The notes below the pieces were generated by a model. The model had not been told where the DNA came from. It searched no databases and saw nothing but the letters and a program-made list of their open reading frames with translations. Position numbers and translations under genes: made by a program. This document shows positions 18,816-61,497 of a DNA stretch of 64,000 bases, piece by piece. This DNA comes from Streptomyces albogriseolus (GTDB lineage: Bacteria; Actinomycetota; Actinomycetes; Streptomycetales; Streptomycetaceae): positions 1 through 64,000 of the forward strand of contig BMVA01000026.1 of the NCBI GenBank assembly GCA_014650475.1, written 5' to 3'. The first letter of the stretch is position 1. Each line of letters opens with the position of its first letter.

Positions 18816-19102
18816 CCTGGCCCTGGTGGCGACGACGCCACCAAGCCACCGCCAGACGATGCCACTGTCGAAGACGAACCAGCTCAGGACACGCATTCTG
18901 ACTGGGGCACTGAATTCCCGGACCAGGGCCATGCCACCCCACGCAGCCTGTAGCTCGTGGCGATGGCGATGCTGTTGGTGGTCGCTGCCCCCGTCTTCGG
19001 AGGGGATGCGCGTCAGCCAGCGCTTGGTCAGATGAGTGGGAAGAGGGGGTATCCGGAAGGCGACAACGCTGTCCCCGACTCCCTCTCGAGGAGGCCTACG
19101 CT

Positions 19103-25986: not shown

Positions 25987-26712
25987 ATGACGACGATCAC
26001 CACGCGCACGGTCGAGTACCTGGCCGACGGTCTGACGATGATCGGGCACCTCGCCCTCCCGGCCGGTGCCGATCGCCGGCCCGCGGTGCTGCTCGGGCCG
26101 GAGGGCACGGGGCTCAGTGACGTCGAGCGCCGCCGGGCCGACGCGCTCGCCGAGCTGGGATACGTGGCGCTCGCCTTCGACCTTCACGGCGGGCGCTATC
26201 TGGACGACCCCGAGGAGATGCTGGCCCGCTGCCTGCCGCTGCTCGCCGATCCCGACCGGATGCGGGACATCGGCCACGCGGCGCTCGACACGTTGCGCGC
26301 CGAACCACGGACCGACCCCGACCGGATCGCCGCCGTCGGCTACGGCACCGGCGGCGCGATCGCGCTGGAACTCGGCCGCGCCGGCGTCGACCTGCGCGCG
26401 ATCGGGACGGTCAACGGACTGATCACAGGCCGGCCGGGCGAGGCAGCGCGCATTCGCTGCCCTGTGTGGGCCGGGGTCGGATCGGAGGACCCGATCATGC
26501 CGCCCGCGCAACGGGAGGCGTTCACCGCCGAGATGCAGGCCGCGGGCGTCGACTGGCGCCTCGTGGTCTACGGCGGCGCCCTGCACGCCTTCCACCACCC
26601 GCCGGTCGACCACACCACGCTCCCCGGCGTCGGCCACCACCCACGGCACGCGCAGCGCGCCTGGCACGACGTCGTCGGCCTCCTCAGCGAATGTCTGACC
26701 TCAGCGGAGTGA
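25987..26712 (+). CDS. Dienelactone-hydrolase-family protein with Gly at the nucleophile position
   Basis: This 241-aa alpha/beta-hydrolase of the DLH family has the usual strand/turn blocks (VALAFDLHGGRY, CPVWAGVGSEDPI) and the late His in GGALHAFHHPP. The nucleophile elbow reads AVGYGTGG, with Gly120 where DLH has Cys and other hydrolases Ser. Acid Asp (SEDP) and His remain. It may therefore not act as a normal hydrolase; I believe related Streptomyces proteins show the same change, so it may define a subgroup. It converges on the LanB-like gene with a 12-nt overlap of the two stops. Confidence 0.8.
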   Translation: MTTITTRTVEYLADGLTMIGHLALPAGADRRPAVLLGPEGTGLSDVERRRADALAELGYVALAFDLHGGRYLDDPEEMLARCLPLLADPDRMRDIGHAALDTLRAEPRTDPDRIAAVGYGTGGAIALELGRAGVDLRAIGTVNGLITGRPGEAARIRCPVWAGVGSEDPIMPPAQREAFTAEMQAAGVDWRLVVYGGALHAFHHPPVDHTTLPGVGHHPRHAQRAWHDVVGLLSECLTSAE

Positions 26713-29049
26713 CGCCGTCGCCCACCACGCTTCCGAACCGCGAGCCAGGGCCGCCCCCTCCGCCTCACTCCCCTGCGTGTCGAACGCGACGAACCTCAGC
26801 TCCGAGGTGTAGCGGTGGCCCTCGTCGTCCGTGAGCCAGGTCTGTTCCGGGGTCGGGAGCATTTCCGTGAACGTCGCCGTGGCCGACGGGTCCTTGCGGG
26901 CGAGTCGGCGCAGGGCCTTGGCCAGGATGGTGACGTAGACCGGGCTGTCGAAGTCGACGTAGAACGGACGGGACTCCGTCGGGGAGACGACGAACACGAA
27001 GCGGGGCAGGCCGAGGCGGGTGCGCCAGTGGCGGGCCCGCACGAAGCGCCGGGCCTCGTCCTTGTCGTCGGCGAACGTGGCCTCCGCGGCGGGCAGTTGC
27101 CAGGCCTCGCGGGCGATGACCAGGCGATCGACCGTGACCCGGGGTGTGTGGGCGGCCGGCCGCAGCGGCTGGAAGAGGTCCATCGACAGCGTGGTCAGGA
27201 CGTGGGAGAAGACGTCGATCGCGGGGAAGACCGCGCCGTCGGGCAGCCGGACCACGAGGGCGCCGTTCCGTTCCTCGACCAGGGCGTCGGCGCTGCGGAC
27301 GGCGCGGGGGCGGGCCGGGTCGGCCGTGAAGTCGGTGAGGGCGACCTGGTAGTCCTCCGGTCGTACCAGCGTGTGCCGGACGCGGGCGGAGAGCCGGGCC
27401 CGGTGCTCCTTGGGAATGAGCGGCATCAGTCGGGGGCCGGGGTGGTCCTGGTCGGTCAGGGCGAACAGCTCGTCGACGTCGGGGTGTTGATGGGTGAAGA
27501 GCGAGGCGCCCAAGGTGTTGGCGGCCAGGTGGAGTTCGCCGAGGACCAGGGTGAGGTCACCGCGCGCGGCGGCCTCGGGGCCGTCGGCGGCCATCATGAT
27601 GTCCGGGCTGAGATAGCGGGCCGCCGTCCAGCCCCCGCCGCCCTCGAACTCCCGCCGCACGGACTCCTCGATGTCGACGGCCCGCCGAGTGACCCTGCGC
27701 GCGTCGTCCGGGACCGCGAGGATCCGCTGCCAGCGCTCGGCGAACTCCCGCTGCACCTCGCTCGCCGCCGTACGGGCGGTGCCGTGCAGCACGGGCAGGC
27801 ACGCGAACCAGAAGGAGGCCAGGTCGACCGGGTCGCCGCCGGCGGCGAGGCGGTGGTGCACCGTGCGGATCTCGGTCTCCACGACGGCGGCAAGCCGGGC
27901 GGTGAGCCAGCCCGCGCTGTCCATCAGGAGGCGCAGCGGGGACAGTGCCTCCACGACGGCCGGGCCGAGGCGCGCCGTGGCCGAGCGCCGGGTGTCGCTG
28001 TAGACGAGGGCGCGGCAGGGGGCGGTGGAGGCCGACTTCTCGCGGGTCGCGGCCGTGTCGGTGAGTGCGGTGAAGTCGCGTTCGAGGTCCTGGAGTGCGG
28101 TGAGGAGGGTGGTCTCGTCGGTGGCCGCCGCCACCTTCGCCCTGCCCCGCTCCAGGAGGTCGAGGGCGTCCAGGCCGCGTCGCCTGAGGTCCGGGTCGCC
28201 GACGGTCGACAGCCAGCCGCGCAGGGCGCGTTCGGGGTGGGTGCCGGCCGGGACCTCCAGTCGCCAGGTCACCCAGCGGCGGGCGACCAGGTCGTGCAGC
28301 GTCCGGGCCACGTCGGTGCCGGGGAGGTCGGCGGCGATGTCGCGGGCCGGACGCACCCCGTCGCAGCGGGCGAGGACCGCTGCCTCGGCGTCGGACACCG
28401 TGGTCGGACGGCGGCCGGGCACGCGTGCCTCGTTCCCGTTCAGCACGACGAACGGGACCGGTCTCGGGGCGATCCACTCGCGCAGCGCCGGGTCCGCGTC
28501 CAGCATCCTGGCCACCGCGTCGATGCCCCAGCTCGCCCAGTAGACGGTGGAGTCGGCGATCAGCCCGGTACCCGGGTCGACGTGTGCGCCGGATGCCGCG
28601 GGGTCCCAGCGGCCCCAGCCGACGGGGCCGAAGAAGCCGATGGTGTCGTTCTTCACGCAGAACCGCTGCCAGTAGTGCGCGACGAGCTCCTCGCGCTGGC
28701 GGGGCATGCTGCTGCGCTTGTCGGTGTCGGGGTCCCAGCGCAGGAACGGGGCGATGCCGGAGTCGAGCAGCGGGCGGTTCTGCCAGGCCAGGGCCTCGCG
28801 GAACGCCGGGGTGCGGGCGATGTCCTGGAGGACGTGCGCGGTCTCCACTGCGGCGGTGCCCAGTTCGGCGGCGAAGGCGTCCCAGTCGGGGCCGGACAAC
28901 GGCGTGTCCGGGACGAACGTGTCGGCGGCCTCTGCGAGTCCGGGCGGGGCGAGGCGGAGCACGCCGTCGGCCGGGAACCCGGGCCCGCGCAGCGCGAACT
29001 GGTTCCACAGCCGCCATCTGCCGAGGAACGGCACGAGGTCTTCGGACAT
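26701..29049 (-). CDS. LanB-like protein 1 (lantibiotic dehydratase N-terminal/glutamylation domain only)
   Basis: This 782-aa protein starts at an ATG 6 nt after AAAGGAG. It matches the Lant_dehydr_N family along its whole length: an N-terminal WRLWNQFALRGPGFPADGVLR block, a central helical part, and the end block RFVRARHWRTRLGLPRFVF followed by SRPFYVDFDSPVYV. The separate elimination domain (SpaB_C, about 300 aa) of full LanB enzymes is absent, as in split thiopeptide dehydratases. Where canonical LanB has an R-x3-R-P-T-P-F-G-type tRNA-binding motif, this protein has RFCVKNDTIGFFGPVGW. It is close to LanB-like protein 2 and is the last gene of an operon with a carrier protein, a PLP enzyme and an adenylation enzyme. 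Its substrate is unknown. Confidence 0.82.
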   Translation of the reverse strand: MSEDLVPFLGRWRLWNQFALRGPGFPADGVLRLAPPGLAEAADTFVPDTPLSGPDWDAFAAELGTAAVETAHVLQDIARTPAFREALAWQNRPLLDSGIAPFLRWDPDTDKRSSMPRQREELVAHYWQRFCVKNDTIGFFGPVGWGRWDPAASGAHVDPGTGLIADSTVYWASWGIDAVARMLDADPALREWIAPRPVPFVVLNGNEARVPGRRPTTVSDAEAAVLARCDGVRPARDIAADLPGTDVARTLHDLVARRWVTWRLEVPAGTHPERALRGWLSTVGDPDLRRRGLDALDLLERGRAKVAAATDETTLLTALQDLERDFTALTDTAATREKSASTAPCRALVYSDTRRSATARLGPAVVEALSPLRLLMDSAGWLTARLAAVVETEIRTVHHRLAAGGDPVDLASFWFACLPVLHGTARTAASEVQREFAERWQRILAVPDDARRVTRRAVDIEESVRREFEGGGGWTAARYLSPDIMMAADGPEAAARGDLTLVLGELHLAANTLGASLFTHQHPDVDELFALTDQDHPGPRLMPLIPKEHRARLSARVRHTLVRPEDYQVALTDFTADPARPRAVRSADALVEERNGALVVRLPDGAVFPAIDVFSHVLTTLSMDLFQPLRPAAHTPRVTVDRLVIAREAWQLPAAEATFADDKDEARRFVRARHWRTRLGLPRFVFVVSPTESRPFYVDFDSPVYVTILAKALRRLARKDPSATATFTEMLPTPEQTWLTDDEGHRYTSELRFVAFDTQGSEAEGAALARGSEAWWATASLR
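28602..28760. repeat. Near-identical 159-bp segment shared by the two LanB-like genes, copy 1
   Basis: This segment matches 33894-34052 at a constant offset of 5292 bp with only a few differences. It encodes the same residues, through the NDTIGFFGPVGWGRW and DTDKRSSMPRQREELVAHYW blocks. The surrounding gene parts differ much more. Gene conversion or strong selection on this part is likely. Confidence 0.75.
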
Positions 29050-29199
29050 GACGGCACTCCTTTGACGCGTGTACGGGACGAGGGAGGTGTGGTCGTGGAG
29101 GGGCGTGTGCGGTGGGTCCTGAGGTGTCGGTCGGTGTCTGTGGCCGACAGGGTCGGCGGGCGGCCCAGGCGCCGCGGGGCCGCCGCGCCGGCCCTCCCC

Positions 29200-29457
29200 T
29201 CAGTCGCGGCCGAAGTCCGCGTCGACGACCTCGGCGAGGTCGCGCGGGGTCGGGTAGGCGAAGACCAGGGAGACCGGGATGTCGTCGCAGCCCAGCGTCT
29301 CCTGGAGGCGGCCGATGACCTGAAAGGCCGCCAGGGAGTCGCCGCCGGCCTCGTAGAAGTCGGTGTCCGCGGTGAGGCCGGGACAGCCGAGGACGTCGCG
29401 GAAGATGTCGACGAGCAGGTCGAGGGTGCTGACGGCGGTGGCGGTGTTCTCGGTCAT
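29200..29457 (-). CDS. Stand-alone peptidyl carrier protein
   Basis: This 85-aa acidic carrier protein has the phosphopantetheine site Ser41 in FYEAGGDSLAAFQ. The four-helix pattern continues with the PVSLVFAYPTPRDLAEVV segment. Its ATG overlaps the PLP-gene stop (ATGA), so it is translated together with the PLP and adenylation genes. It is the natural acceptor of the free adenylation enzyme at 30497 and would be primed by the Sfp-type transferase at 34851. The loaded residue may be passed to the starter condensation domain of the NRPS, or be worked on by the LanB-like proteins (inference). Confidence 0.93.
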   Translation of the reverse strand: MTENTATAVSTLDLLVDIFRDVLGCPGLTADTDFYEAGGDSLAAFQVIGRLQETLGCDDIPVSLVFAYPTPRDLAEVVDADFGRD

Positions 29458-30500
29458 GGCGTGTCCTTCCGGAGGATGGTGGTTGCGGTGAGGGTGTGGA
29501 GTCGGGCGGTGGTGTTGCCGCCGGAGACGACGGCCACCGCGGCTTCGCGGCGCCGGGCGGCCCGCAGGGCTCCGGCGAGGGCGACGGCGCCGCTGGGTTC
29601 GGCGTCGACGCCGTGGCGGTGCAGCAGAGCCGCCGCGGCGAGGATCTCGGCCTCGCCGACGGCGACGAGGTCGTCGACCCGGTCGCGGATGATCGGGTAG
29701 GTGAAGTGGCCGGGCCGCTGCCCGCGCAGGCCGTCGGCGACGGTCCGGGTCGGCGGCAGCTGGACCGGGCGTCCGGCGGCCAGGGAGCGGGCGTAGCGCG
29801 GGGTGAGCGCGGGTTCGACGCCGACGACGCGGACGGGGTGTCCGGCGGCGGCGAGGCAGACGCCGGCCAGGAGGCCGCCGCCGCCGACGGGGACGTAGAC
29901 CGTGTCGGTGTCGGGGGCGTCGGTGAGGACTTCGGCGCCGACCGTGCCCTGGCCGGCGATCACCAGGGGGTGGTCGGAGGAGGGGACGAGTGCGGCGCCG
30001 GTCGTCTCGGCGATCGTCCGGGCACGTTCCTCGCGTTCGGCCACTCCCCCGCCGGCCTGGACGACCCGTGCGCCCAGGGCGCGGATGGCGGCGGCCTTGG
30101 CGGGGGCCGCGCCGGCGGCCAGGACGACGGTCAGTTCCAGGCCGAGGGTGCGGGCGATGCGGGCGAGGGCGATGCCGTGGTTGCCGGAGGAACCGGTGAC
30201 GACGCGGTCGGCGGCGAGGGCGAGGACGGCGTTGGCGGCGCCACGTGCTTTGAAGGAGCCGCCGGTCTGGAGGTGTTCGGCCTTCAGGAGCAGGCCTGGA
30301 CCGCAGACGGTGGTCGTCGGGCCGGGCAGCAGGGGGGTGCGCACGGTGTACGGGGCGATGCGGGCGGCGGCGACGGCGAGGTCGGCGGGCCCGTGGACGC
30401 CGAGCGCGGAGTGCGGGACGGCGGCCGGCGTGGCCGCACGGACCGTGGTCGGCGGGCGGACCGTGGCGGCCGGGCGGCCCGTCGTGGTCGGTGTGCTCAT
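29454..30500 (-). CDS. Fold-type II PLP enzyme (threonine dehydratase/serine racemase family)
   Basis: This 348-aa protein starts at ATG 30500 after AGGGAGC, overlapping the adenylation gene stop. The PLP lysine is in GGSFKARGAANAV (Lys84). Other signatures are SSGNHGIALA, the glycine loop VPVGGGGLLAG and the C-terminal SGGNT. No ACT regulatory domain is present, unlike biosynthetic IlvA. The family includes threonine/serine dehydratases and Ser/Thr/Asp racemases. Here it may supply 2-oxobutyrate or a D-amino acid, or act on the carrier-bound residue. Sequence alone does not separate these. Confidence 0.85.
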   Translation of the reverse strand: MSTPTTTGRPAATVRPPTTVRAATPAAVPHSALGVHGPADLAVAAARIAPYTVRTPLLPGPTTTVCGPGLLLKAEHLQTGGSFKARGAANAVLALAADRVVTGSSGNHGIALARIARTLGLELTVVLAAGAAPAKAAAIRALGARVVQAGGGVAEREERARTIAETTGAALVPSSDHPLVIAGQGTVGAEVLTDAPDTDTVYVPVGGGGLLAGVCLAAAGHPVRVVGVEPALTPRYARSLAAGRPVQLPPTRTVADGLRGQRPGHFTYPIIRDRVDDLVAVGEAEILAAAALLHRHGVDAEPSGAVALAGALRAARRREAAVAVVSGGNTTARLHTLTATTILRKDTP

Positions 30501-32029
30501 GCGGTGCTCCCTGCGACCAGGCGTCCGCGGTCCGCCTTGCCCCCACGGGTGGTGGGCAGGGCCGTGTGGCGCAGGAAGCGGCGCGGCATCAGGTGCGGGG
30601 GCAGGGTGCGGGCCAGGTGGCGGCGCAGGGCGGCGTCCGGCGTGGTGTGGTCGCCGGTGACGTGGGCGGCCAGGTACACGCGGCCCCGGTCGTCGGTGTG
30701 CGGGGTGACGACGGCTCCGCTCACGGCGGGGTGGGTGAGCAGCGCGCCCTCCACCTCGGCGGGGTCCACGCGGTAGCCGCGGATCTTGATCTGGCGGTCG
30801 CCGCGGCCTTCGTAGCGCAGCCCCTGCGGGGTCCACCGGCCCAGGTCGCCGGTGCGGTACATGCGGGAGCCGGGCGGACCGTAGGGGTCGGGGAGGAACG
30901 CGGCCGCCGTGCGGGCCGGGAGCCCTCCGTACCCGCGGGCGAGGCCCGTGCCGCCGATGTAGACCTCGCCCACGGTTCCGTCGGGGACGGGGGTCAGGTC
31001 GGGGCCGAGGACGCGGACGGTGGCGCCGGTCCGGGGCAGGCCGACCACGTCGTGGGCCGGGTCGGGGTCCGCCGGGACGTCGTGGCGGGTGGTCGTCATG
31101 GTGCACTCGGTCGGCCCGTACTGGTTGACCAGCCGGCCCGGGACGAGGGACCGGCCGCCCGCGGTGAGGAAGGGCCGCAGGGACTCGCCGCTGGACGCGA
31201 CGAGGGTGACGCCGGCCAGCGGGTCGGGCAGGTCGCGCTGTCCGGCGAGGTGGGTGAGGAAGGAAGGGGTGACGCTGAGCAGGGCGGTGACGCCGTGCTC
31301 GCGCACCGTGCGGGCGAAATCGGCGGGGCGCAGCAGCCGCGCGCGCTCCACGAGGACGAGGCGTGCCCCGGCCAGCAGGGGTGCGAAGGTGTCGCGGAGC
31401 GAGGCGTCGTAGCCGAGCGGGGCGGTTTGCAGGACGACGGTGTCCTGGCCGAGCCCGAAGGCGCGGACGGTGTCGCGGAGGTAGGTGTCGAGGGCCTGGT
31501 GCTCGACGAACACGGGACTCGGCTCGCCGGTGCTGCCGGAGGTGTGGCTGACGTAGGCGAGGGCGTGCGGGTCGACGGCCGCCGGGGAGGCGGAGGTGTC
31601 GGCGGCCGTCGGGTGCCACGCGTCGGCGGCCGTCGCGTCCGGGGCATCGGGGCCCGGGCCGTCCAGCTCGATCACGAGCGTGCCCAGGTCGAGGGCGGCT
31701 GCGTGGGCCGTCGTGGTCAGCAGGAGGCGGGCGCCGGCGCTGCGGACGAAGGAGGCCAGCCGGTCCCGGGGCTGGGTGACGTCCAGCGTGAGGAAGGCGG
31801 CGCCGCAGCGCAGGACGGCCGTCATGGCCGCGACGGCGTCCGGGCCGTGTTCCACGGCGACGGCGCAGACGGTCTCCGGGCGTACCCCGTGGGCGCGCAG
31901 CAGCCGGGTCACCTCCCGCGTCCGCCGGTCGAGCTGCCCGTAGGTGACGGGCCCGTCCGGGGTGTCCAGGGCGATCCGGTCCGGGTGTCGTGCGGCGTGT
32001 TCGGCGAGGTCGTCGGCGAGGGTGCGCAT
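30497..32029 (-). CDS. Stand-alone amino-acid adenylation enzyme with atypical motifs
   Basis: This 510-aa free A domain has A3 HTSGSTGEPSPVFVEH, in which the usual Lys-Pro-Lys-Gly is changed, A5 QYGPTECT, A7 YRTGDLGRW, A8 GRGDRQIKIRGYRV and a final GGKADR Lys. Reading the binding-pocket positions by eye gives about D-A-R-S-A-S-Q-M-T-K. The Asp235 equivalent suggests an amino acid. Arg at the 239 position is unusual and could pair with an acidic side chain. No carrier domain is attached; the partner is the free carrier protein two genes on. It overlaps both neighbours by ATGA-type couplings. An MbtH protein is encoded nearby. Confidence 0.87.
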   Translation of the reverse strand: MRTLADDLAEHAARHPDRIALDTPDGPVTYGQLDRRTREVTRLLRAHGVRPETVCAVAVEHGPDAVAAMTAVLRCGAAFLTLDVTQPRDRLASFVRSAGARLLLTTTAHAAALDLGTLVIELDGPGPDAPDATAADAWHPTAADTSASPAAVDPHALAYVSHTSGSTGEPSPVFVEHQALDTYLRDTVRAFGLGQDTVVLQTAPLGYDASLRDTFAPLLAGARLVLVERARLLRPADFARTVREHGVTALLSVTPSFLTHLAGQRDLPDPLAGVTLVASSGESLRPFLTAGGRSLVPGRLVNQYGPTECTMTTTRHDVPADPDPAHDVVGLPRTGATVRVLGPDLTPVPDGTVGEVYIGGTGLARGYGGLPARTAAAFLPDPYGPPGSRMYRTGDLGRWTPQGLRYEGRGDRQIKIRGYRVDPAEVEGALLTHPAVSGAVVTPHTDDRGRVYLAAHVTGDHTTPDAALRRHLARTLPPHLMPRRFLRHTALPTTRGGKADRGRLVAGSTA

Positions 32030-34350
32030 CACCGGTCCCCCTCGGCGGTGACGGTCTGGTCGACGGCGACGAAGCGGAGTTCGGAGGTGTAGCGCCGGCC
32101 GTCGGTGTCGGTGAGCCAGGCCTGTTCGGGGGTGGGGAGCATCTCGCTGACCTTCAGCCGGGCGTCCGGGTCGGTACGGGCGAGGCGGCGGGCGGCCTTG
32201 GCGAGGATGGTGGTGTAGACGGGGCTGTCGAAGTCGACGTAGAACGGGCGGGGTTCGGTCGGGGAGACGACGAAGACGAAGCGGGGCAGGTCGTGGCGGC
32301 GCTGCCAGTGGCGGGCGCGGACGAAGCGCGCGGCCTCGGACTTCTCGTCGGCGAAGTCGAGCTCCGCGACGGGCAGTTGCCAGGTCTCGCGGGCCAGGAT
32401 CATGCGGTCGACGCTGATGCGGGGGGTGTGGTCGCCCTCGGGGCGCAGGGTGAAGCGGTCCATCACGCGCTGGGTGAGGGTGTTGGCGTAGGCGTCGAGG
32501 AGGTCGTAGCGGGTGCCGTCGGGGAGCCGGACGGTCAGCCTGCCGTCGACGTCCTCCACCGGGACGTCGGCGCCGAGCGCGGTGCGGGGGCGGTGCGGGT
32601 CTCCGGTCTGGTCGACCAGCGCCACGTAGTGGTCCTGGTCGCGGTCGAGGGAGGGGCGGCTGCGGGTGGACCACTTCAGCGGCAGTTCCTTGGCGAGCAT
32701 GGGCAGCAGCCGGGGGCCGGGGAAGTCGCGGCCGGTCTCGGCGATCAGCTCGTCGCGGTCGGGGTGCTGGTGGACGAAGAGGGAGGCGCCCATGGTGTTG
32801 AGGGCGCTGTGCATCTCGCCCAGGACCAGTTCCACGTCCCCGCGGGCCAGCGCCGCCTCGTCCTCGGCGACGACGAGGACGTCGGGGCTGAAGTAGCGGG
32901 CGAGCGACCAGCCGTCGCCGGGCTCGTCGAACTCCTCGCGGACGCGGGCGGCGAGTTCGGCGGTGGTCAGCCGGACACGGCGGGCGCCGGGCGGGATGTC
33001 CAGCAACCGGGCCCATTTGGCGCGCAGTTCGTCCTGGACGGCGTCGATGAGGGCGCCGGCCTCGGGGTGCGGGGAGGGCAGGGTGTGCAGCCACAGGGCG
33101 GCGAGGTCGACGGGGCCGTCGGCGGCGAGCCGGTCGTACACGGCGCGCAGCCGGGCACGGATGCCGTCGGCGAAGCGGTTGGTCATCCAGCGGGCGGCGG
33201 TCAGGCACAGCTGGAGGGGTTCCAGGTGGGCGAGCAGGCCGGGCCCGGCGGTGGCGGTGGCGGCGCGGCGGGTGTCGGAGTAGACGAGTCCGCGGCAGGG
33301 GGCGGTCCGGGCGCCCTTGGCGCGCTGGGCCTCGGCGTCGGTGAGGGCGGCGAAGTCGGCTTCCAGGGCGCCGATGGCGCAGGTCAGCGCCTCGGCGTCG
33401 TCGCCCGCGCCGGCGACGGCGTCGCGCCCGCGCTCCAGGACGGCGAGCTTGGCGAGGGCGCGGTCGCGGGCCTCCTCGTCGGGGACCCGTTCCACGATGG
33501 CGCGCAGGGCGCGGTCGGGGTGGGTGGCCGCGGGCACCTCCAGACGCCAGTGGACCCAGCGCCGGCGGACCAGCTCCCGGACGAGCGCCTCGGTCTCGTC
33601 CTCGGTGAGGTCGCGGGCGGCGGCGATCTCCGGCACCGGGCGGGTTCCGTCGCAGAGCTCCAGGACGGCCGCCTCGCGGTCCGTCATCTGCCGCGCGGGC
33701 CGTCCGGGCACGCGCACGGTAAGGCCGTCGGTGCGGACGAGGGAGACGCGGCGCGGCGGGATCCAGCGCATCAGTGCGGGGTCCTCGGCGAGCACCTTGG
33801 CCAGGGCGTCGATCGCCCAGCCGGAGAAGTACACGGCGCTCGCGGCGAGGAAGGTGTCTCCGGCGCGGGTGGCGACGGCGTCCGTCGCGGCAAGGTCCCA
33901 GCGGCCCCAGCCGACAGGGCCGAAGAAGCCGATGGTGTCGTTCTTCACGCAGAACCGCTGCCAGTAGTGGGCGACGAGTTCCTCGCGCTGGCGGGGCATG
34001 CTGCTGCGCTTGTCGGTGTCGGGGTTCCAGCGCAGGAACGGCGCGATGCCGGTGCGGAGCACGGCCGGGTTCTGCCAGGCCAGGGCCGCCTGGAAGCGGG
34101 GCCGGGCGGCGACCTCCTGGAGGTGGCGGGCGGTGTCCACGGCGGCGGCGGCCAGCTCCTGGGTGAAGCCGTCCCACTCGGGGCCGGTGAGCGGGGCGCC
34201 GGGGGTGAACTTGTCGGCCGCCTCGGCCAGTCCGGGAGGGGCGAGGCGCAGCACGCCGTCGGCCGGGAAGCCCGGACCGCGCAGCGCGAACTGTTCCCAC
34301 AGCCGCCAGCCTCCGCCCGGCAGCAGGACAGGTGCGTGCTCGTCCGACAT
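32029..34350 (-). CDS. LanB-like protein 2 (lantibiotic dehydratase N-terminal/glutamylation domain only)
   Basis: This 773-aa protein starts at an ATG 6 nt after AAGGAG. It is a paralogue of LanB-like protein 1, sharing WRLW.QFALRGPGFPADGVLR, IAPFLRW, RFCVKNDTIGFFGPVGW, the ARHWQRRHDLPRFVFVVSP block and the end SELRFVA. It too lacks the SpaB_C elimination domain and has the altered N-terminal basic motif. It is the first gene of the operon LanB2-A-PLP-T-LanB1; its stop overlaps the adenylation start. An in-frame extension to 34953 would run through MbtH and is not real. Two such proteins might form a heterodimer or act on two positions. Confidence 0.82.
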   Translation of the reverse strand: MSDEHAPVLLPGGGWRLWEQFALRGPGFPADGVLRLAPPGLAEAADKFTPGAPLTGPEWDGFTQELAAAAVDTARHLQEVAARPRFQAALAWQNPAVLRTGIAPFLRWNPDTDKRSSMPRQREELVAHYWQRFCVKNDTIGFFGPVGWGRWDLAATDAVATRAGDTFLAASAVYFSGWAIDALAKVLAEDPALMRWIPPRRVSLVRTDGLTVRVPGRPARQMTDREAAVLELCDGTRPVPEIAAARDLTEDETEALVRELVRRRWVHWRLEVPAATHPDRALRAIVERVPDEEARDRALAKLAVLERGRDAVAGAGDDAEALTCAIGALEADFAALTDAEAQRAKGARTAPCRGLVYSDTRRAATATAGPGLLAHLEPLQLCLTAARWMTNRFADGIRARLRAVYDRLAADGPVDLAALWLHTLPSPHPEAGALIDAVQDELRAKWARLLDIPPGARRVRLTTAELAARVREEFDEPGDGWSLARYFSPDVLVVAEDEAALARGDVELVLGEMHSALNTMGASLFVHQHPDRDELIAETGRDFPGPRLLPMLAKELPLKWSTRSRPSLDRDQDHYVALVDQTGDPHRPRTALGADVPVEDVDGRLTVRLPDGTRYDLLDAYANTLTQRVMDRFTLRPEGDHTPRISVDRMILARETWQLPVAELDFADEKSEAARFVRARHWQRRHDLPRFVFVVSPTEPRPFYVDFDSPVYTTILAKAARRLARTDPDARLKVSEMLPTPEQAWLTDTDGRRYTSELRFVAVDQTVTAEGDR
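33894..34052. repeat. Near-identical 159-bp segment shared by the two LanB-like genes, copy 2
   Basis: Second copy of the segment at 28602-28760, in the same orientation and same reading frame. Confidence 0.75.
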
Positions 34351-34606: not shown

Positions 34607-34858
34607 GTGACGCAACCCGACTTCGCGAACGGCGCGGACGCCGAGGAGGCCCGCCCGGACACCGACGAGGAGTACCTCGTGGTGCGCAACGACGAGGAGC
34701 AGTACTCGATCTGGCGGGCGGACCGTGAGCTGCCCGCGGGCTGGTACCAGGAGGGGGTGCGCGGCGGCCGGCAGACGTGCCTGGACCACATCGGCGTGAT
34801 CTGGACGGACATGCGTCCGCTGAGCCTGCGCCGGCGGCTGGCCGGGGCAGATGCCTGA
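34607..34858 (+). CDS. MbtH-like protein
   Basis: This 83-aa MbtH-family protein starts at GTG 34607 after CGGGAGG. The conserved features are EEYLVVRNDEEQYSIW, LPAGWYQ, the Cys in RQTCLDHI and the end IWTDMRPLSLR. MbtH proteins bind adenylation domains and are often needed for folding or activity. It can serve the free A domain and the four NRPS A domains of this locus. Its end overlaps the transferase start by 8 nt. Confidence 0.93.
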   Translation: MTQPDFANGADAEEARPDTDEEYLVVRNDEEQYSIWRADRELPAGWYQEGVRGGRQTCLDHIGVIWTDMRPLSLRRRLAGADA

Positions 34859-35738
34859 GGGGCTCCCGGGCAGGCTCCCGGGACCCTCGGCCCACGACCC
34901 GCCACCAGGGGGCCTGACGCCCGGCACCCTGATGTCAGGAGTCCAGCCGGCACGAGCCCCGACGACGGCCGCCGCGCCGCCGGGAGCGCCGCTGGCCGGG
35001 TCCGCCGCGCCGCCGGTGCTGCCGCAGCGGCTGTGTCCGGCGGTGCTGGACCTGTCGGGACTGCGGGACGGACGCGCCGCGCGGGGTCCGCGGGCCCTGC
35101 GGGCCCCGGTGGAGCTGTATCTGGCCCGGGTCGCGGAGCAGGACGCGCAGACCCTGCGGTACGCCCGCGAGGTCCTCGACGCGGAGGAGCGGGCCCGTGC
35201 CCGCGCCTTCCGGCACGGCCGGGACCGCGACGCCTACGTGGTCGCCCACGCGGCGCTGCGGAACGTGCTGAGCGTCGTGACGGGGGTGCGGGCCGACGCG
35301 CTGGCGCTGACCCGTGAGCCCTGCGCGGGCTGCGGCGGGCCGCACGGGCGGCCGGTGCTGTCCGCCTCGGGGGTGCACTTCTCCCTGTCGCACAGCGGCG
35401 GTCTGGTGCTGGTGGCGCTCGCGCCGGCGCCGGTCGGGGTCGACGTGGAGGAGCTGGCCACCGTCAAGGTCATGCTCAGCGCGCAGTCGGCGCTGCACCG
35501 GGCGGAGGCGGAGGAGCTGGCGCGACTGCCCGCCTACGGCAGGCCGGCCGCGTTCACCCGTGCCTGGGTGCGCAAGGAGGCCTACCTCAAGGGTCTGGGC
35601 ACGGGTCTGGTGCGCAACCCCGCGCTCGACTACCTGGGCACGGGTCCGTCGCCCGCGGACCCGGCGCCGGGCTGGGCGGTGCGCGACGTCCTGGTGCCCT
35701 CCGGCTACGCGGCCGCGGTGGGACTGCGCACGTGCTGA
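34851..35738 (+). CDS. Sfp-type 4'-phosphopantetheinyl transferase
   Basis: This 295-aa enzyme attaches phosphopantetheine to carrier proteins. It shows HFSLSHSGGLVLVAL, the magnesium motif VGVDVEE and FTRAWVRKEAYLKGLGTGL. The ATG at 34851 overlaps the MbtH gene; residues up to about 55 are Pro/Ala-rich, so a later start (ATG 34932) is possible. Alongside MbtH it should prime the free carrier protein and the four NRPS carrier domains. Confidence 0.93.
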   Translation: MPEGLPGRLPGPSAHDPPPGGLTPGTLMSGVQPARAPTTAAAPPGAPLAGSAAPPVLPQRLCPAVLDLSGLRDGRAARGPRALRAPVELYLARVAEQDAQTLRYAREVLDAEERARARAFRHGRDRDAYVVAHAALRNVLSVVTGVRADALALTREPCAGCGGPHGRPVLSASGVHFSLSHSGGLVLVALAPAPVGVDVEELATVKVMLSAQSALHRAEAEELARLPAYGRPAAFTRAWVRKEAYLKGLGTGLVRNPALDYLGTGPSPADPAPGWAVRDVLVPSGYAAAVGLRTC

Positions 35739-35915: not shown

Positions 35916-36650
35916 GTGACAGCGCCCGAACCCACCATCGTCGCCACCTCAGGCGGCTTCCGCCCCGGCCGACGTACACGGGTGCTCTTCGACGCCCTGG
36001 TGCACCACGCGGTCGACCTCTCCGGCGTGCACGGCCGACGGCCGCGCGTCCTCCATGTAGGGACGGCGGCGGGCGACGCCGAGATGGTCGCGGCACGGGT
36101 CTCCGAGGCGGCCCGGGTGGCGGGCTACGACCTCACTCCGCTCCAGCTGTTCCCCATGCCCAACGTCGAGGACGTCGAGGCCACGGTGCTCGACCACGAC
36201 GTGGTGTGGGTGGGGGGCGGTTCGGTGGCCAACCTGCTCGCCGTGTGGCGGGTCCACGGCCTGGACGCGATCATGCGGCGCGCCTGGCGGTCCGGGGTGG
36301 TGCTCGCCGGGGTGAGCGCCGGCTCCATCTGCTGGTACCAGGGCGGCACCACCGACTCCTTCGGCCCCGACCTGCGCGCCGTCACCGACGGACTCGCGCT
36401 GCTCCCCTACGGCAACGGCGTCCACTACGACTCCGACGAGGGCCGCCGCCCGCTGCTCCACCGGCTGGTCGCCGACGGCACGTTCACCGAGGCCCACTGC
36501 ACCGACGACGGGGTGGGCCTGGTCTACCGCGGCACCCGACTCGTCGAGGCCGTGGCGGAGTTGCCGCGCAAGGCGGCGTACGTGGTGCGGCGGGAAGACG
36601 GCCGGGCCGTGGAGGAGCGGATCGAGCCGCGTCTGCTTCCGTCGGCGTGA
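35916..36650 (+). CDS. Peptidase S51-family protein (dipeptidase E/cyanophycinase-like)
   Basis: This 244-aa cytoplasmic protein starts at GTG (VTAPEPTIVATSGGF). The nucleophile elbow is GVSAGSICWYQGG, where the middle Ser is the expected S51 nucleophile. VWVGGGSVANLL and DGLALLPYGNGVHYD are further family blocks. These enzymes split N-terminal Asp dipeptides or similar small peptides. Related genes occur widely in Streptomyces outside clusters, so a role in this pathway (trimming or self-protection) is only possible, not shown. Confidence 0.82.
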   Translation: MTAPEPTIVATSGGFRPGRRTRVLFDALVHHAVDLSGVHGRRPRVLHVGTAAGDAEMVAARVSEAARVAGYDLTPLQLFPMPNVEDVEATVLDHDVVWVGGGSVANLLAVWRVHGLDAIMRRAWRSGVVLAGVSAGSICWYQGGTTDSFGPDLRAVTDGLALLPYGNGVHYDSDEGRRPLLHRLVADGTFTEAHCTDDGVGLVYRGTRLVEAVAELPRKAAYVVRREDGRAVEERIEPRLLPSA

Positions 36651-36808: not shown

Positions 36809-37453
36809 TCAGACCAGGCCCTGGCGAACCGCGTGGGCGACCGCGTGGGCGCGGTTGCGGGCCTGGAGCCGGGTCATCAGCTCGTAGATGACGTTCTTGA
36901 CGGTGTGTTCGGAACAGCCGAGGAGCAGCGCGATGTCCGCGTTGCCGTGGCCCTCGGCCATGAGCCGCAGGACGGACGTCTGCCGTGCGGTCAGGACCGG
37001 CGGTCTCCGGCGGGCCGGACCGTCCGCACGGCCTCGGGTGCTCAGCGCTCCGGACAACTCCGGGTAGGGGATGCTCGGATGGGGGTACGCGGCCCGGTGG
37101 ACGGCCCTGAGCAGGCTCTCCTCGTCCAGTTCGGCCGCGCCGATGACGACCGCTCCGGCGCGCAGGATCCGCCGCCGGTCCTCGGGGGCGACGCTGTCGC
37201 AGACGAACAGGACGGGCCCGGGCGGGCGCGGCGCGCGCAGCGCCTGGTCCGCGTCGGCGGCGACGAGCACGGTGACCGTGGCGCAGGGGGCCGGCTCGTC
37301 GGCGGCGGACCGGAGGCCGGCGCGTTCGGCGAGCGCGCGGACCCGTTCCGCGCCCGGCGCCGGCACGACCCGCACCACGACGGCGGGGGCGGTCGTGACC
37401 GTGGCGCCGGAGGACGTCGCGGTGACGGGCGACGCCGTCAGGGTGGCGGTCAC
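36809..37453 (-). CDS. LuxR-type regulator, small, without clear receiver (second of a pair)
   Basis: This 214-aa protein has a C-terminal LuxR helix-turn-helix: LTARQTSVLRLMAEGHGNAD, then LLGCSEHTVKNVIYELMTRL. The N-terminal half is a degenerate receiver-like fold (VTVLVAADADQAL, PGPVLFVCDSVAPEDRRRIL) without an evident phospho-Asp pocket. The GTG at 37453 overlaps the stop of the upstream LuxR gene. The two proteins are similar and probably arose by duplication; they may act together. Confidence 0.85.
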   Translation of the reverse strand: MTATLTASPVTATSSGATVTTAPAVVVRVVPAPGAERVRALAERAGLRSAADEPAPCATVTVLVAADADQALRAPRPPGPVLFVCDSVAPEDRRRILRAGAVVIGAAELDEESLLRAVHRAAYPHPSIPYPELSGALSTRGRADGPARRRPPVLTARQTSVLRLMAEGHGNADIALLLGCSEHTVKNVIYELMTRLQARNRAHAVAHAVRQGLV

Positions 37454-38064
37454 AGCAGGCCCGCCCGGAGCGCGTAGGCGACCGCGTGGGCGCGGTTGCG
37501 CAGCCGGAAGCGCTGGGTGATGTCGTGCACGACGGTGGTGACGGTGCGGGGCGAGTAGGCGAGCCGCTGGGCGATCTCCGCCGTCTCGTGGCCGTCGGCC
37601 ACCAGACGCAGCACCGACCGTTCCCGCTCGGACAGCATGCCCTCGCTCCAGCCGCCGCCGGAGCCGCGCACGGGAGCTTCCGGCTGGTCCAGCAGCTCCT
37701 CCAGCAAGCCGGGGGGCAGGGTGCAGTCGTCGCGCGCGGCCGCCAGCACCGCGTGGGCGAGGCGGGAGGCGTCGGCCTCGCGGCGCAGCAACAGGCCCCG
37801 GGCGCCGGCGGCAAGGGCGTGCAGGACGTCTCCGGAGGCGAGGGCGCCCGCGACCAGGACGACGGCGGGGCGGTGGGGCTGGGTGCGGGTGGCGCGCACC
37901 GTGTCCAGCTCGGCGGGGCCGAGGCGGTCGACGGTGAGGACGGCGACCCGCGCGTCGGCGGGCTCGCACACGGTCAGTTCGGGCCGGACGAGCAGGGTCG
38001 CGCGGATGCCTGCCTCCAGCACCGGGTCGAGTGCGACCACACTGACAGGTACGGGTGCTCCCAT
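37450..38064 (-). CDS. LuxR-type regulator, small, without clear receiver (first of a pair)
   Basis: This 204-aa protein starts at ATG 38064 after AAGGAG. The C-terminal LuxR domain reads LSERERSVLRLVADGHETAE, then RLAYSPRTVTTVVHDITQRF. The N-terminus (VSVVALDPVLEAGIRATLLV, VLTVDRLGPAELD) resembles a receiver lacking the phosphorylation site, as in several Streptomyces antibiotic-pathway regulators that respond to small molecules. It is divergent from the LanM-like gene and so probably controls it. Confidence 0.87.
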   Translation of the reverse strand: MGAPVPVSVVALDPVLEAGIRATLLVRPELTVCEPADARVAVLTVDRLGPAELDTVRATRTQPHRPAVVLVAGALASGDVLHALAAGARGLLLRREADASRLAHAVLAAARDDCTLPPGLLEELLDQPEAPVRGSGGGWSEGMLSERERSVLRLVADGHETAEIAQRLAYSPRTVTTVVHDITQRFRLRNRAHAVAYALRAGLL

Positions 38065-38468
38065 CTGCTGCTCCTTGGAGGTTCGTGCGCCCCTTCGACT
38101 GAGCGGGCGGTCTGGCGTGGGGACTCGGGAACACCGTGCCGCCCCCGTGACCGCCGGGGCATCGGTAGACGGACCCCACATTTGCGCGCCGGGCGCGCCC
38201 GGGTCGTGGGGGTGGGGCGGGCGGTCGGGCGGGGAGCGACGGCCCGGTGGGGGCCCAGAGGCGGCGCCGACCGGCCCTCCGGGGTGGGCATGGGGGGCGC
38301 GCACCCCTCCGGGTACCCGTCCCGTGCCCGCACGGCCCGTCGCGTCCGCGGGCCGCGCGTCACGCGTGCCCGTAGGGGATGCCCTCCCCTCCGCGGTTTC
38401 TCGTGCCGTCCCCCATGCCCCCCGCCCGTGGGGAGGGGGCCGGGGGAGAATATGGGGGACGGTTACCC
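38065..38468. other. 404-bp divergent gap between the LuxR pair and the LanM-like gene
   Basis: No gene or clear operator. The stretch is very GC-rich, with several near-repeats of CCCCATGCCC-type words. It must hold promoters for both directions, but I cannot point to them. Confidence 0.4.
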
Positions 38469-41400
38469 ATGTGGGGGGCGCGGGAGGTCTGGGACCTTTT
38501 TCCCGTGACCGACACCGCCAGCCTCCCGACCTCCCGGAGCACCGGACTCCCCGCCGCCTGGTGGGCCCCGGCGCTGACCCTCGCAGAGCGGCTCGCCGCC
38601 CCCGGGCTCCCCGGGCCGGCCGCCGCGACCGGCGCCGCCGGGCCGCTGCCCTGGACGGTCGGCGACGCGGAGGGCTTCGCCCTGCGGCTGGACCGGCTGG
38701 GTGTGGACGGCGCCACGGCGGCGGCCCTGGCCGCCGAGCCCGCGGAGCGTCTGGCGGAGCGGGCCGTCGAGCCCGACTGGGCGTCGTACGCGGAGGAGGT
38801 GCTGGCCGCGGCCCCCGAGGGGCTGCCGGAGGTCGAGGTCGGCGGCGAGGGTCCCGACGCGTTCGCGCCGGCCGTGCGCCCGCTGGTCGCCATGGCCGCC
38901 GCCCGCCTCGCGGACCGGACGGCCGGCGTCCCGGACGCCGAGGCCACCGTGTGGCGGGACGCGTTCACCCGCCGTCTGACCCACCAGCTGGTCCGGCTCG
39001 CCGCCCGCACGCTGGCCCAGGAGCTGCACCGGGCCCGGCGCTCCCGGCGCCTGGCGGGCGCCGGCCCGCGCGAGCGGTTCGCCTCCTTCGTCGCGGCGGC
39101 CGGCACCCGGCGCGGACTGTCGGACCTGTTCACCGCCTACCCGGTCCTGGCGCGGATGCTGAGCCGGACCGCGCTGGACGCGACGGAGGCCACGGCCGAA
39201 CTCGTCGCCCGCTTCCGGTCCGACCGCGCGGACCTGGTCGCCGCTCTCCTCGACGGCCGGACGCCGGGCCGGCTGGTCCGCGTCGACCTCGGCCGCGGCG
39301 ACGCCCACCAGGGCAACCGGTCGGTGGCGATCCTGCACTTCGCGGACGGCCGCCGCCTCGTCCACAAGCCCCGTCCGCTCGACCAGCACGCCCTCCTCGA
39401 CGACCTGGTCTGCTGGCTCAACGCGAAGGTCCCCGGTCTGGGCCTGCGCACCCCGCGCACGCTGCGCCGGGAGTCCCACGGCTGGCTGGAGTTCGTCGAG
39501 CACCGCTGGTGCTCCTCGGTGACGGAGACCGACACCTTCTACCGCCGCCAAGGCGCCCTGCTGGCCCTGCTGTACGCGGTGGACGGCGCCGACATGCACT
39601 ACGAGAACGTCATCGCGTACGGCGACCAGCCGGTCCTGGTGGACGCCGAGACGCTGCTGCACACCGGTCTCGGCCAGGCCCTCACGGCGGGCGCCGACCC
39701 GGCGGCGGACGCGCTGGCCGCCTCCGTCCACCGCACCTGCCTGCTCCCGCACCTGCTCATCGGGGAGCACGGCGCGCTGGACATCTCCGCGCTCGGCCGG
39801 GACACCGACGGCACCTTCCCCAGCGAGGGCCTGCGCTGGGAGGACAGCGGACTGGACACCATGCGGGCGGTGCGCGGGCCGCTGGCCAGCCCCGCCGCCC
39901 AGAACCACCCGCTGCCGCACGGCACTTCCCTCTCCGTCACCGACCACACGGCGGCCCTGCTGGAGGGGTTCCGCGCCGCCTACGCGGCGATCGCCGCCCA
40001 CCGCGGCGAACTGGTCGGCGATGACGGCCCGTTGACCCGCTGGGGCGACCGTCCGGCGCGGCTCATCGCCCGTGCGACCCGGCTGTACGCCACCCTGCTG
40101 GAGGAGTCCACCCACCCCGCGCTGCTGGGCGACGCCCTGGCCCGGGAGGGGGTGTTCGCGGTGCTGTGGTCGGAGTCCGCGCAGGACCCGGCGCGCGAGC
40201 GGCTCATCGAGCACGAGACGGCGGCGCTGTGGCGCGGTGACGTCCCCTTCTTCACCCACCGGCCCACCGGCACGGCCGTGATCGCCGACGGCGGTGCCCG
40301 CGTGCCCGACCTCCTGCCGGTGGCCGCCGTGACCGCGGTGCGCGAGAAGATCGGCCGCATGGACGAGGTCGACTGCCTCGACCAGGAGTGGATCATCTCG
40401 GCCACCCTCGCGGTGCGCGGGGCGAGTTCCCCGCCGGACCGCCCCCGGTCGGAGCTGGCACCGGCCCCCGTGCCGCCGGTGGCGCCGGACCCGTCCCGGC
40501 TGCTCGCCGCCGCCTGCGGGATCGCCGACGAGATCGCGGCCCGCGCGGTCCGCGGCGGCACCCGCACCAACTGGATCGGTCTGGAACGGGTGTCGGGCGA
40601 CCACTGGGCCGTCCTGCCGATGGGGGCGGGCCTGGCCCAGGGCTACTGCGGAGTCGCCCTGTTCCTCGCCCACACCGAGGCGCTCACCGGCTCGGGACGC
40701 TACGGCGCGGCGGCCCGCGAGGCGGTGCGTCCGCTGCCGGCCCTGCTCAAGGCGCTCGCCGAGGACCCCCAGCTGAGCGAGGCCGCCGGCCCCGGCGCCT
40801 ACGACGGACTCGGCGGGATCGTGTACGCCCTGGTCCGGCTGGCGGGGCTCCTCGACGAGGGACTGCGGGCGTGTCTGCCGGACGCGCTCACCGCCCTGGG
40901 ACACGCGGCGGCGGCCTGCGCCGACCCCGGTCTGGCCCAGGGGCGGGCGGGAGCCCTGGCCGCCTCGGTCGCCGCGTACGAGGCCACCGGTGATCCGGCG
41001 GCGCTGCGGCTGGCGGACCAGGTCGCGGACCTGCTGCTGGTGCAGGCGCTCGGGGAGGGCCCGGTCACGCCCGGCGTGGCCGGTTCCGGCCTCCCGTCGT
41101 CCGCCGGTTTCGCCGACGGCGCCGCCGGCATCGCCTGGGCGCTGCGGCGCTACGCGGGCCACCGCCCCGAGCGCGCCGCCCACGCCGAGCGCACGGCCGT
41201 CGCCCTGCTGGACTCCGGTGCGCGCCACGGCGATCCGGCGGACCTGTCCTGGTCGCACGGGCTGGCCGGACGGGCCGTCGCCGGGCTGCCGAACCCGGTC
41301 GGACCGCCGGACGACGCGAGCCTGTTCGAAGCCTCCGTGCGGCTCGCGGACGCGCCCATCGGTCCCGACCTCAGCCTCGCCCAGGGCGTCCTCGGCCGGC

Positions 41401-41639
41401 TGGAGGCCCTGACCGTCCTGGCCGGGCAGGGCGACAGCACGGCCCGTTCGGCGCTGCGACGGCACACCGGTCACGTCCTCGCCCTCGTCGAGGCACAGGG
41501 CCACCGCTGCGCCACCCCCGACCACGTCCCCTCCCCCGGTCTGCTGACCGGCCTCGCCGGCATCGGCTACGGACTGCTCCGCCTGGCCCACCCCGGGACC
41601 GTCCCGTCGGTCCTGCTCCTGCACCACCCGGACCACTGA
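38469..41639 (+). CDS. LanM-like synthetase with intact dehydratase and zinc-less cyclase half
   Basis: A protein of about 1056 aa. The start is uncertain: ATG 38469 lies after GGGGGAC, and GTG 38505 is an alternative. The N-terminal DUF4135 dehydratase half keeps the known active-site blocks: GRGDAHQGNRSVAIL, LVHKPRPL, GADMHYENVIA and PVLVDAETLLH. The C-terminal half has the LanC-like GxxG repeats (GLAQGYCGVAL, GFADGAAGIAWAL, GLLTGLAGIGYGLL). The zinc ligands are gone: the WC-x-G Cys is Ser (LSWSHG, codon 41253-41255), and the Cys-His of CHG is Ala-Gln (SLAQGVLG, 41379-41384). It should dehydrate Ser/Thr by phosphorylation and elimination but not close thioether rings by the zinc route. Confidence 0.87.
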   Translation: MWGAREVWDLFPVTDTASLPTSRSTGLPAAWWAPALTLAERLAAPGLPGPAAATGAAGPLPWTVGDAEGFALRLDRLGVDGATAAALAAEPAERLAERAVEPDWASYAEEVLAAAPEGLPEVEVGGEGPDAFAPAVRPLVAMAAARLADRTAGVPDAEATVWRDAFTRRLTHQLVRLAARTLAQELHRARRSRRLAGAGPRERFASFVAAAGTRRGLSDLFTAYPVLARMLSRTALDATEATAELVARFRSDRADLVAALLDGRTPGRLVRVDLGRGDAHQGNRSVAILHFADGRRLVHKPRPLDQHALLDDLVCWLNAKVPGLGLRTPRTLRRESHGWLEFVEHRWCSSVTETDTFYRRQGALLALLYAVDGADMHYENVIAYGDQPVLVDAETLLHTGLGQALTAGADPAADALAASVHRTCLLPHLLIGEHGALDISALGRDTDGTFPSEGLRWEDSGLDTMRAVRGPLASPAAQNHPLPHGTSLSVTDHTAALLEGFRAAYAAIAAHRGELVGDDGPLTRWGDRPARLIARATRLYATLLEESTHPALLGDALAREGVFAVLWSESAQDPARERLIEHETAALWRGDVPFFTHRPTGTAVIADGGARVPDLLPVAAVTAVREKIGRMDEVDCLDQEWIISATLAVRGASSPPDRPRSELAPAPVPPVAPDPSRLLAAACGIADEIAARAVRGGTRTNWIGLERVSGDHWAVLPMGAGLAQGYCGVALFLAHTEALTGSGRYGAAAREAVRPLPALLKALAEDPQLSEAAGPGAYDGLGGIVYALVRLAGLLDEGLRACLPDALTALGHAAAACADPGLAQGRAGALAASVAAYEATGDPAALRLADQVADLLLVQALGEGPVTPGVAGSGLPSSAGFADGAAGIAWALRRYAGHRPERAAHAERTAVALLDSGARHGDPADLSWSHGLAGRAVAGLPNPVGPPDDASLFEASVRLADAPIGPDLSLAQGVLGRLEALTVLAGQGDSTARSALRRHTGHVLALVEAQGHRCATPDHVPSPGLLTGLAGIGYGLLRLAHPGTVPSVLLLHHPDH

Positions 41640-41772: not shown

Positions 41773-41985
41773 ATGGACCAGCACCTCGCCGCCGCCGACT
41801 CCGCCGAGTTCACCGCCGTCGAGTCCGCCGAGACGCACACCGAGCGGGACGTCGTGGGCGGCATCACCCTCTCCGGCCGCAACCGCGCCTGCGCCCGCGC
41901 CCGGGTGCTGGCCGGCATGGTCCTCACCAGCGGCATCGTCATCACGCTGAGCAGCCTCGACACCTCGGTCTCCGCCCCCAACTGA
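41773..41985 (+). CDS. Candidate precursor peptide of the LanM-like enzyme, 70 aa
   Basis: This small gene starts 133 bp after the LanM-like gene, same strand, with a GAAGGGA site before ATG. The first 30 residues are acidic and end in DVVGG, a double-glycine leader site. The remaining 40 residues (from ITLSGRNRACARARV) hold one Cys and ten Ser/Thr, seven of them after the hydrophobic VLAGMVLTSGIVITL part. One Cys and many Ser/Thr suit a dehydrated but little or not cross-linked product, in line with the zinc-less cyclase. No C39-peptidase transporter is nearby to cut it. A non-precursor small protein remains possible. Confidence 0.6.
   Translation: MDQHLAAADSAEFTAVESAETHTERDVVGGITLSGRNRACARARVLAGMVLTSGIVITLSSLDTSVSAPN

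Positions 41986-47558: not shown

Positions 47559-47562
<4 letters not shown>
46333..47562 (-). CDS. Cytochrome P450
   Basis: This 409-aa bacterial class I P450 has the I-helix AFAGGETT, the ExxR in VEETLRLDG and the haem Cys in [16 protein letters not shown] (about residue 359). It has no membrane anchor. Its ATG overlaps the NRPS stop by 4 nt (ATGA), showing close coupling. It is expected to hydroxylate or cross-link the NRPS product or a carrier-bound residue; a ferredoxin partner is not encoded here. Confidence 0.94.
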
Positions 47563-54866
<7,304 letters not shown>

Positions 54867-55013: not shown

Positions 55014-61307
<6,294 letters not shown>

Positions 61308-61435
61308 TGTGAGCCTCCAAGCCGTGTTTTCCAGCAGACTGCCGCCGGCGGGGCGGGGCTCCATAGGGAAGAAGACGCAGCACCGGACGCAGACCGGGTT
61401 GCCGGAGCGGGGTCTGGTGGGCGGCAGGGGGGTTG

Positions 61436-61456
61436 CATGTGCCGTAGCGGCACATG
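61436..61456. promoter_or_regulatory. 21-bp palindrome in the NRPS/MerR divergent region
   Basis: CATGTGCCG, TAG, CGGCACATG: a perfect 9-bp dyad with a 3-bp centre, 42 bp before the MerR start and about 130 bp before the NRPS start. It is the natural operator for the MerR protein and could regulate both directions. Confidence 0.65.
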
Positions 61457-61497
61457 GTCCAGTAGGCGGCACGTACGACATGGAGAGGTTCCCTCGC

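Follow-up and report, generated by a model that had tools for sequence, protein, structure and literature searches.

We describe here a five-gene operon in the first 64,000 nucleotides of contig BMVA01000026.1 (C26; 89,713 bases) of the 8.07 Mb Streptomyces albogriseolus genome, the stretch that we refer to as the window. The operon runs on the minus strand from 34350 to 26701. It encodes, in order, LanB1 (32029..34350, 773 residues, PF04738), a freestanding adenylation (A) enzyme (30497..32029, 510 residues, AMP-binding family), a pyridoxal phosphate (PLP) enzyme of the serine racemase/threonine dehydratase family (29454..30500, 348 residues, PALP family, with SFKxRGA and GSSGNH motifs), a freestanding carrier protein (T; 29200..29457, 85 residues, PP-binding family, with a GGDSL attachment site) and LanB2 (26701..29049, 782 residues), assigned by family match and sharing 59% identity with its paralogue LanB1. 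Both LanB-like proteins match Lant_dehydr_N, at 175.7 and 142.9 bits. LanB1 is the upstream and LanB2 the downstream copy; the initial annotation of this DNA had called the upstream copy LanB2. The first four genes overlap, LanB1 and A by one base (TGATG) and A/PLP and PLP/T by 4 bases, and T is spaced 150 bp from LanB2. The single-strand order and the overlaps through T reported in that annotation are exact in their coordinates, and its family assignments match ours. The LanB-like genes sit with genes for non-ribosomal peptide synthetases (NRPSs), two of which (NRPS 1 and NRPS 2) are nearby in the window. The initial annotation of the operon did not mention this pair, nor the MbtH-like, phosphopantetheinyl transferase, LanM and LanA-like genes described below.

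The homologue survey proposed in the initial annotation recovers the same arrangement elsewhere. Scanning contigs with LanB1 and LanB2, for the best 80 of 129 relatives, gave 67 loci; in 49 of these all five genes lie on the same strand, and 12 of the remaining 18 are interrupted by contig ends. Where gene calls are clean (46 loci), overlaps are found between LanB1 and A in 44, between A and the PLP gene in 36 and between the PLP gene and T in 30. In two lineages (L069 and L071; Actinomadura and Sphaerisporangium) there is only an A-T-LanB set, and LanB1 and the PLP gene are jointly absent beside it. Two Amycolatopsis loci (L054 and L055) have the order LanB1-PLP-LanB2 with A about 20 kb off on the same contig; in the L054 genome T lies beside the displaced A, 20 kb from the module, and the A code is unchanged. 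Judged by gene order and family membership, A, T and the LanB-like genes form a conserved unit. At L025 LanB1 is followed by 2.6 kb (11107-13725) in which none of A, PLP, T and LanB2 has a match, either because the module is interrupted or because of a join introduced during assembly. The module is rearranged at L031, where an inverted partial copy of T and LanB2 (15334-18990) adjoins a long LanB2.

Among 396 genomes of the phylum a profile search matched three, including the S. albogriseolus genome itself and one 105-residue piece. LanB1 matched 15 of 150 Streptomyces genomes at E values of at most 1e-100; in 9 of them the homologue is long and at least 50% identical. Plasmid records of both Streptomyces sp. 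CL7 and S. albogriseolus contain 99% matches to LanB1, and S. fungicidicus has one of 82%; the cluster layout from NRPS 1 to LanB2 is identical in Streptomyces sp. CL7 and S. fungicidicus. NRPS genes accompany the module also where the synthetases are only ~40-45% like those of the window (L049, L053, L056 and L060).

There is no precursor peptide gene in the operon, as the initial annotation had stated. The gap between T and LanB2 is 0-11 bp in 19 of the 46 cleanly called loci, and at L049 an ornithine carbamoyltransferase gene ends 20 bp before LanB1. In many loci the operon has no space for a precursor, and we reject a hidden one on this ground. An ornithine/aspartate carbamoyltransferase gene lies directly upstream of LanB1 at L049, L054, L056 and L060. 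It is preceded at L049 by a class III aminotransferase gene, and at L054 an ornithine cyclodeaminase family gene follows LanB2.

The AlphaFold2 model of LanB1 (mean predicted local distance difference test score 89.8) has the fold of the LanB glutamylation domain (PF04738), with a winged helix like that of the RiPP recognition element (RRE; RiPP, ribosomally synthesized and post-translationally modified peptide) at residues 197-273. The best solved matches in a fold search were TbtB, GodF, MibB, MadB and NisB. Sequence searches of the PDB that used LanB1 or the A2 profile as query did not recover a LanB, although a canonical LanB query did. The key residues resemble those of the peptide aminoacyl-tRNA ligases (PEARLs), which the available part of the published description presents as amide ligases that use ATP and aminoacyl-tRNA and that contact the tRNA 3' end through a YxxR motif (PMC11962472). 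Residues R24, Y129, R132, K136-N-D-T, D490 and G511-E512-x-H514 are invariant in all 48 aligned rows, and E757 and R759 are each kept in 46. The YxxR pair (Y129 and R132) is common to canonical LanBs too. The YxxR, ExH and ExR spacings are the same as those given for BhaB7 in the accessible portions of two reports (PMC11962472, PMC12945691), the mapping being by alignment and spacing to published BhaB7 positions rather than to a characterised PEARL sequence. A terminal ExR is present in all 10 LanB1, LanB2 and relative sequences; the two canonical LanBs reaching that far lack it and have EIIAP and EIVVP instead. Profile alignment places KNDTIGFF opposite the canonical RPTPFGLF region, a weak match (probability 42%, E 2.6e-4).

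In a tree of 60 rows, three canonical LanBs (from the same genome) separate at 100/100, and LanB1 (100/99) is sister to a group of LanB2 and two A-T-LanB rows (97/93). The LanB1 and LanB2 clades each contain Streptomycetaceae, Pseudonocardiaceae and Micromonosporaceae, which implies that the duplication giving rise to them predates their spread through these families. The LanB-like proteins of L069 and L071 group with LanB2, a position that suggests a joint loss of LanB1 and the PLP gene in the A-T-LanB lineages. From residues and phylogeny we infer that LanB1 and LanB2 are PEARL-like and that the label LanB is misleading for them.

The A enzyme scores 351.5 bits against TIGR01733 (cut-off 317.4). 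Its specificity code, DARSASQMTK, follows the pattern DARS[A/V]SQMTK seen in 53 of 56 scored copies (one copy is incomplete), the scored set being 56 of 58 sequences since the YGPTE string is not present in exact form in L058 and L072. The A-T-LanB loci have the codes DGRSLSHITK and DARSLAHITK. Every scored copy (56/56) has Arg at code position 239, as do the distant A enzymes of L075 and L119, and at L075 a methylaspartate mutase gene stands beside LanB, T and A. The conserved Arg239, together with this mutase, hints that the substrate of A is an acidic amino acid. All 56 T hits have the GGDS attachment site. The PLP enzyme has the Lys motif SFKxRGA and the SSGNH loop in 56 of 57 hits, the other hit being without the motif. 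Its nearest solved structures are a threonine deaminase (1ve5) and serine racemases, and none of the 25 NCBIfam matches listed reached its cut-off. We rejected a 2,3-diaminopropionate synthase of the SbnA type, which scores 51.5 against a cut-off of 349.95.

These features lead us to propose, at somewhat less than an even chance, that the operon serves to build an unusual starter and to load it for the neighboring NRPS. The proposal retains one suggestion of the initial annotation, that the LanB-like proteins may act on a carrier-bound amino acid. A 4'-phosphopantetheinyl transferase (PPTase; plus strand, 34851..35738 as the open reading frame is listed, with the true start probably near 34944) would arm T, and an MbtH-like NRPS accessory protein (34607..34858, plus strand, delimited against an annotated homologue in L078) may assist A. 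The A enzyme would adenylate an acidic amino acid and load it onto T, leaving the second carboxylate free. LanB2 would then phosphorylate this carboxylate with ATP and couple it to the amine of an aminoacyl-tRNA, after which the tRNA would be hydrolyzed off the product on T. LanB1 may add a second residue or work on a related substrate, and the PLP enzyme would supply or alter the amino acid for the LanB1 branch. Finally, the first condensation (C) domain of NRPS 1 would receive the product from T. NRPS 1 (55014..61574, minus strand) has two C, two A and two T domains, probably in the order C-A-T-C-A-T, and its first C domain has HHxxxDG near residue 228; because the synthetase begins with a C domain, it could accept a T-bound starter. 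The acidic substrate, the use of aminoacyl-tRNA, the carrier-bound acceptor and the order of the steps are thus predictions, and the gene order, the protein families, the PEARL-type residues, the conserved A code and the C-first synthetase are read from the sequence itself. A broader and more tentative proposition is that an NRPS-type carrier protein here replaces the ribosomal carrier peptide of the pearlins: T may be charged by its dedicated A enzyme with an acidic amino acid, on whose free carboxylate the two PEARL-like ligases may grow an amide-linked branch from aminoacyl-tRNAs before hand-over to the NRPS.

Several observations weigh against this proposal. Described PEARLs, in the available sections of the reports, extend a C-terminal carboxylate and not a carrier-bound side chain (PMC11962472, PMC12945691). 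BhaB7 residues R197 and Q201 fall by spacing on Q121 and L125 and have no match, and R429, R715, F755 and K763 of BhaB7 lie outside our residue mapping. A pearlin LanB of L095, identified as such from its context, lacks the Glu of ExH and reads ARVH. In alignment A3 most rows share 25-30% identity with the first one, and the tree tool flagged long branches. The assignment of position 239 depends on alignment to a single reference domain, and naming a substrate from the A code gave no confident match, the code corresponding to no known specificity that we can name. The standalone A enzyme of L117 and L118 has a code starting with Ser instead of Asp, so that an acidic amino acid is no rule for such clusters. 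Lastly, SnaE, the closest characterised protein, was set beside LanB1 and LanB2 by its published description and not by sequence.

Other explanations bear on the same evidence. LanB1 and LanB2 may add a residue from aminoacyl-tRNA to the free carboxylate of an NRPS product or NRPS-bound intermediate in the manner of SnaE, with A and T acting as an ordinary trans-loading module. We regard this as rather unlikely, even though SnaE is the closest characterised precedent on its partly available account (PMC11212132), NRPS genes stay with the module in the lineages with divergent synthetases noted above, and at L077, L117 and L118 LanB-like genes lie among NRPS genes with no freestanding carrier protein in view. 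The persistence of A, T and LanB together at L069 and L071, with neither LanB1 nor the PLP gene alongside, argues the other way, as do the four C-domain motifs of NRPS 1 and NRPS 2, which differ from the ureido-forming EHHxxHDG. The initial annotation had also suggested that an aminoacyl group carried by T might substitute for aminoacyl-tRNA as the amine donor, which would explain the constant company of A and T. There is moreover no tRNA gene in the window, and the prolyl-tRNA synthetase gene next to NRPS 1 lies away from the cluster in two relatives; cellular aminoacyl-tRNA, however, needs no local gene. In PEARLs the YxxR pair contacts the tRNA 3' end, according to the accessible part of that work (PMC11962472), and in view of its invariance we consider such a substitution quite improbable. 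Ordinary LanB chemistry, in which true glutamylating enzymes would dehydrate Ser or Thr on a carrier-bound or NRPS peptide, is more improbable still. It accords with the fold of LanB1, but KNDT replaces RPTP, the terminal ExR is present, the canonical LanBs split off in the tree and no partner with the elimination domain PF14028 is encoded on contig C26 (the four matches in the genome are on C5, C6 (two) and C23). On these grounds of residues, tree position and contig content we reject canonical LanB function; the proteins do not look like ordinary glutamylating LanBs, and their key residues match PEARLs.

It is also improbable that LanB1 and LanB2 act, at the C-terminus or by glutamylation, on the lanthipeptide precursor candidate encoded nearby, to give a lanthipeptide-NRPS hybrid. 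The LANTHIPEPTIDE pair, 4-8 kb upstream of the operon, consists of a LanA-like peptide (41773..41985, plus strand, 70 residues, with a double-Gly site) and the class II lanthipeptide synthetase LanM (38379..41639, plus strand; the start of an annotated homologue maps to 38505). A LanM is in view in 24 of the 67 loci, and 15 further module genomes, probed for one, all have a match (44-65% identity), which in 9 lies on the module contig and in 6 on a different one. Among the 150 Streptomyces genomes, a LanM fragment matching at 53% or more occurs in 9/9 with a long LanB homologue (at least 50% identity) versus 2/141 others (p 7e-13), with both thresholds set after the lists had been seen; counting in G111 and G479, which have LanB fragments only, gives 9/11 versus 2/139. 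LanA-like peptides lie beside many LanMs, their C-terminus is conserved, and the core is strongly conserved across Streptomyces module carriers. Yet the six off-contig LanMs show 44-50% identity, a level also reached in Streptomyces genomes that lack the module. In G437 and G516, two fragmented assemblies with no module hit, LanMs are likewise adjoined by relatives of LanA that share its C-terminal end, and contig C26 lacks an elimination domain. By these distributions we read the LanA-LanM pair as a linked but separable part and not as a constant partner of the module.

The link between LanB-like and NRPS chemistry, which the initial annotation had taken to be undescribed, is already in print. 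SnaE of threopeptin biosynthesis is a PEARL-like "lantibiotic dehydratase" characterised from an NRPS-polyketide synthase (PKS) cluster, and about two thousand NRPS/PKS clusters carry an annotated lantibiotic dehydratase, of which one has been assigned, by the available portion of that account (PMC11212132). As in the present system, a PEARL-like protein there occurs in an actinobacterial NRPS cluster without a precursor peptide. That cluster differs in having one such enzyme with a ureido-forming NRPS and a PKS, and its genes, so far as listed in the same portion, include neither a freestanding A-T pair nor a PLP enzyme (PMC11212132). The pearlin PEARLs TglB, AmmB and BhaB share the LanB glutamylation fold and some of the residues at the ATP site and the tRNA 3' end but, in the accessible descriptions, work with a ribosomal carrier peptide, whereas the constant partner of the present module is the A-T pair (PMC11962472, PMC12945691). 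Class I LanBs (NisB and MibB) and the split TbtB have the fold and the RRE-like winged helix in common with LanB1. Unlike them, the present proteins have KNDT and ExR in place of RPTP and EIV/EII and are encoded on a contig without an elimination domain; the operon has no lanthipeptide or thiopeptide precursor, and the LanA candidate adjoins a class II LanM. The livipeptin system, as partly available, likewise partners a tRNA-using enzyme with an A-peptidyl carrier protein (PCP), the enzyme being a leucyl/phenylalanyl (L/F) transferase instead of a PF04738 protein and a reductase domain being added (PMC10548850). In daptomycin-like lipopeptides a separate loading enzyme and carrier pass a starter to the first C domain, but the excerpted account describes a freestanding acyl carrier protein and acyl ligase, a special C domain, a fatty acid and no tRNA enzyme (PMC9113097). 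A LanB-like PEARL in an NRPS cluster and a tRNA enzyme with an A-PCP protein are thus already known. As far as our searches of open-access papers go, the cassette that combines two old PEARL-like paralogues with a serine-racemase-like enzyme and freestanding A and T is new; we recognized no description of it there, most subscription journals being outside the search.

The operon lays out the candidate partners (A, T and the PLP enzyme) in one unit kept across several actinobacterial families, and is small enough for in vitro rebuilding. Were the carrier model true, aminoacyl-tRNA and thioester building blocks would meet on one carrier, giving a rule for predicting the products of such clusters and correcting a widespread misannotation.

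The remaining genes of the window surround this core. On the plus strand are a family S51 peptidase E (35916..36650) and a large AAA/LuxR regulator (42117..45032), and on the minus strand two LuxR-type response regulators (36812..38064), all by family match. Peptidase E prefers N-terminal Asp, which would fit an Asp starter, though the gene is seen in only part of the loci. Further minus-strand genes encode a major facilitator superfamily transporter (45053..46297), a cytochrome P450 (46336..47562) and NRPS 2 (47559..54866), with two C, two A and two T domains and one thioesterase (TE) domain, probably ordered C-A-T-C-A-T-TE. The code of its first A domain, DFWNVGMVHK, is presumably of the Thr type. 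The family I prolyl-tRNA synthetase gene (62516-63928) that adjoins NRPS 1 has, in a search of the genome, a strong match only to itself. We rejected it as the aminoacyl-tRNA supply or resistance gene of the cluster, from which it is separate in Streptomyces sp. CL7 and S. fungicidicus.

LanB-like genes occur in other settings as well. At L117 and L118 the gene lies between those for an AMP-ligase/C/two-T protein and a docking-domain C-A-T protein, with the standalone A gene nearby. At L075 (13191-22872) and L119 a distant LanB-like gene is found in a small cluster with an ATP-grasp ligase and the A enzyme, the former locus also encoding a SnoaL-like protein, the carrier protein, a GTP cyclohydrolase II and a freestanding C domain. 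A Kitasatospora sp. NBC_00039 plasmid (L095 and L096) carries in a row three genes annotated as lantibiotic dehydratases and several hypothetical ones of similar size, accompanied by two TldD-type proteases and flavin enzymes, and looks like a multi-PEARL pearlin cluster.

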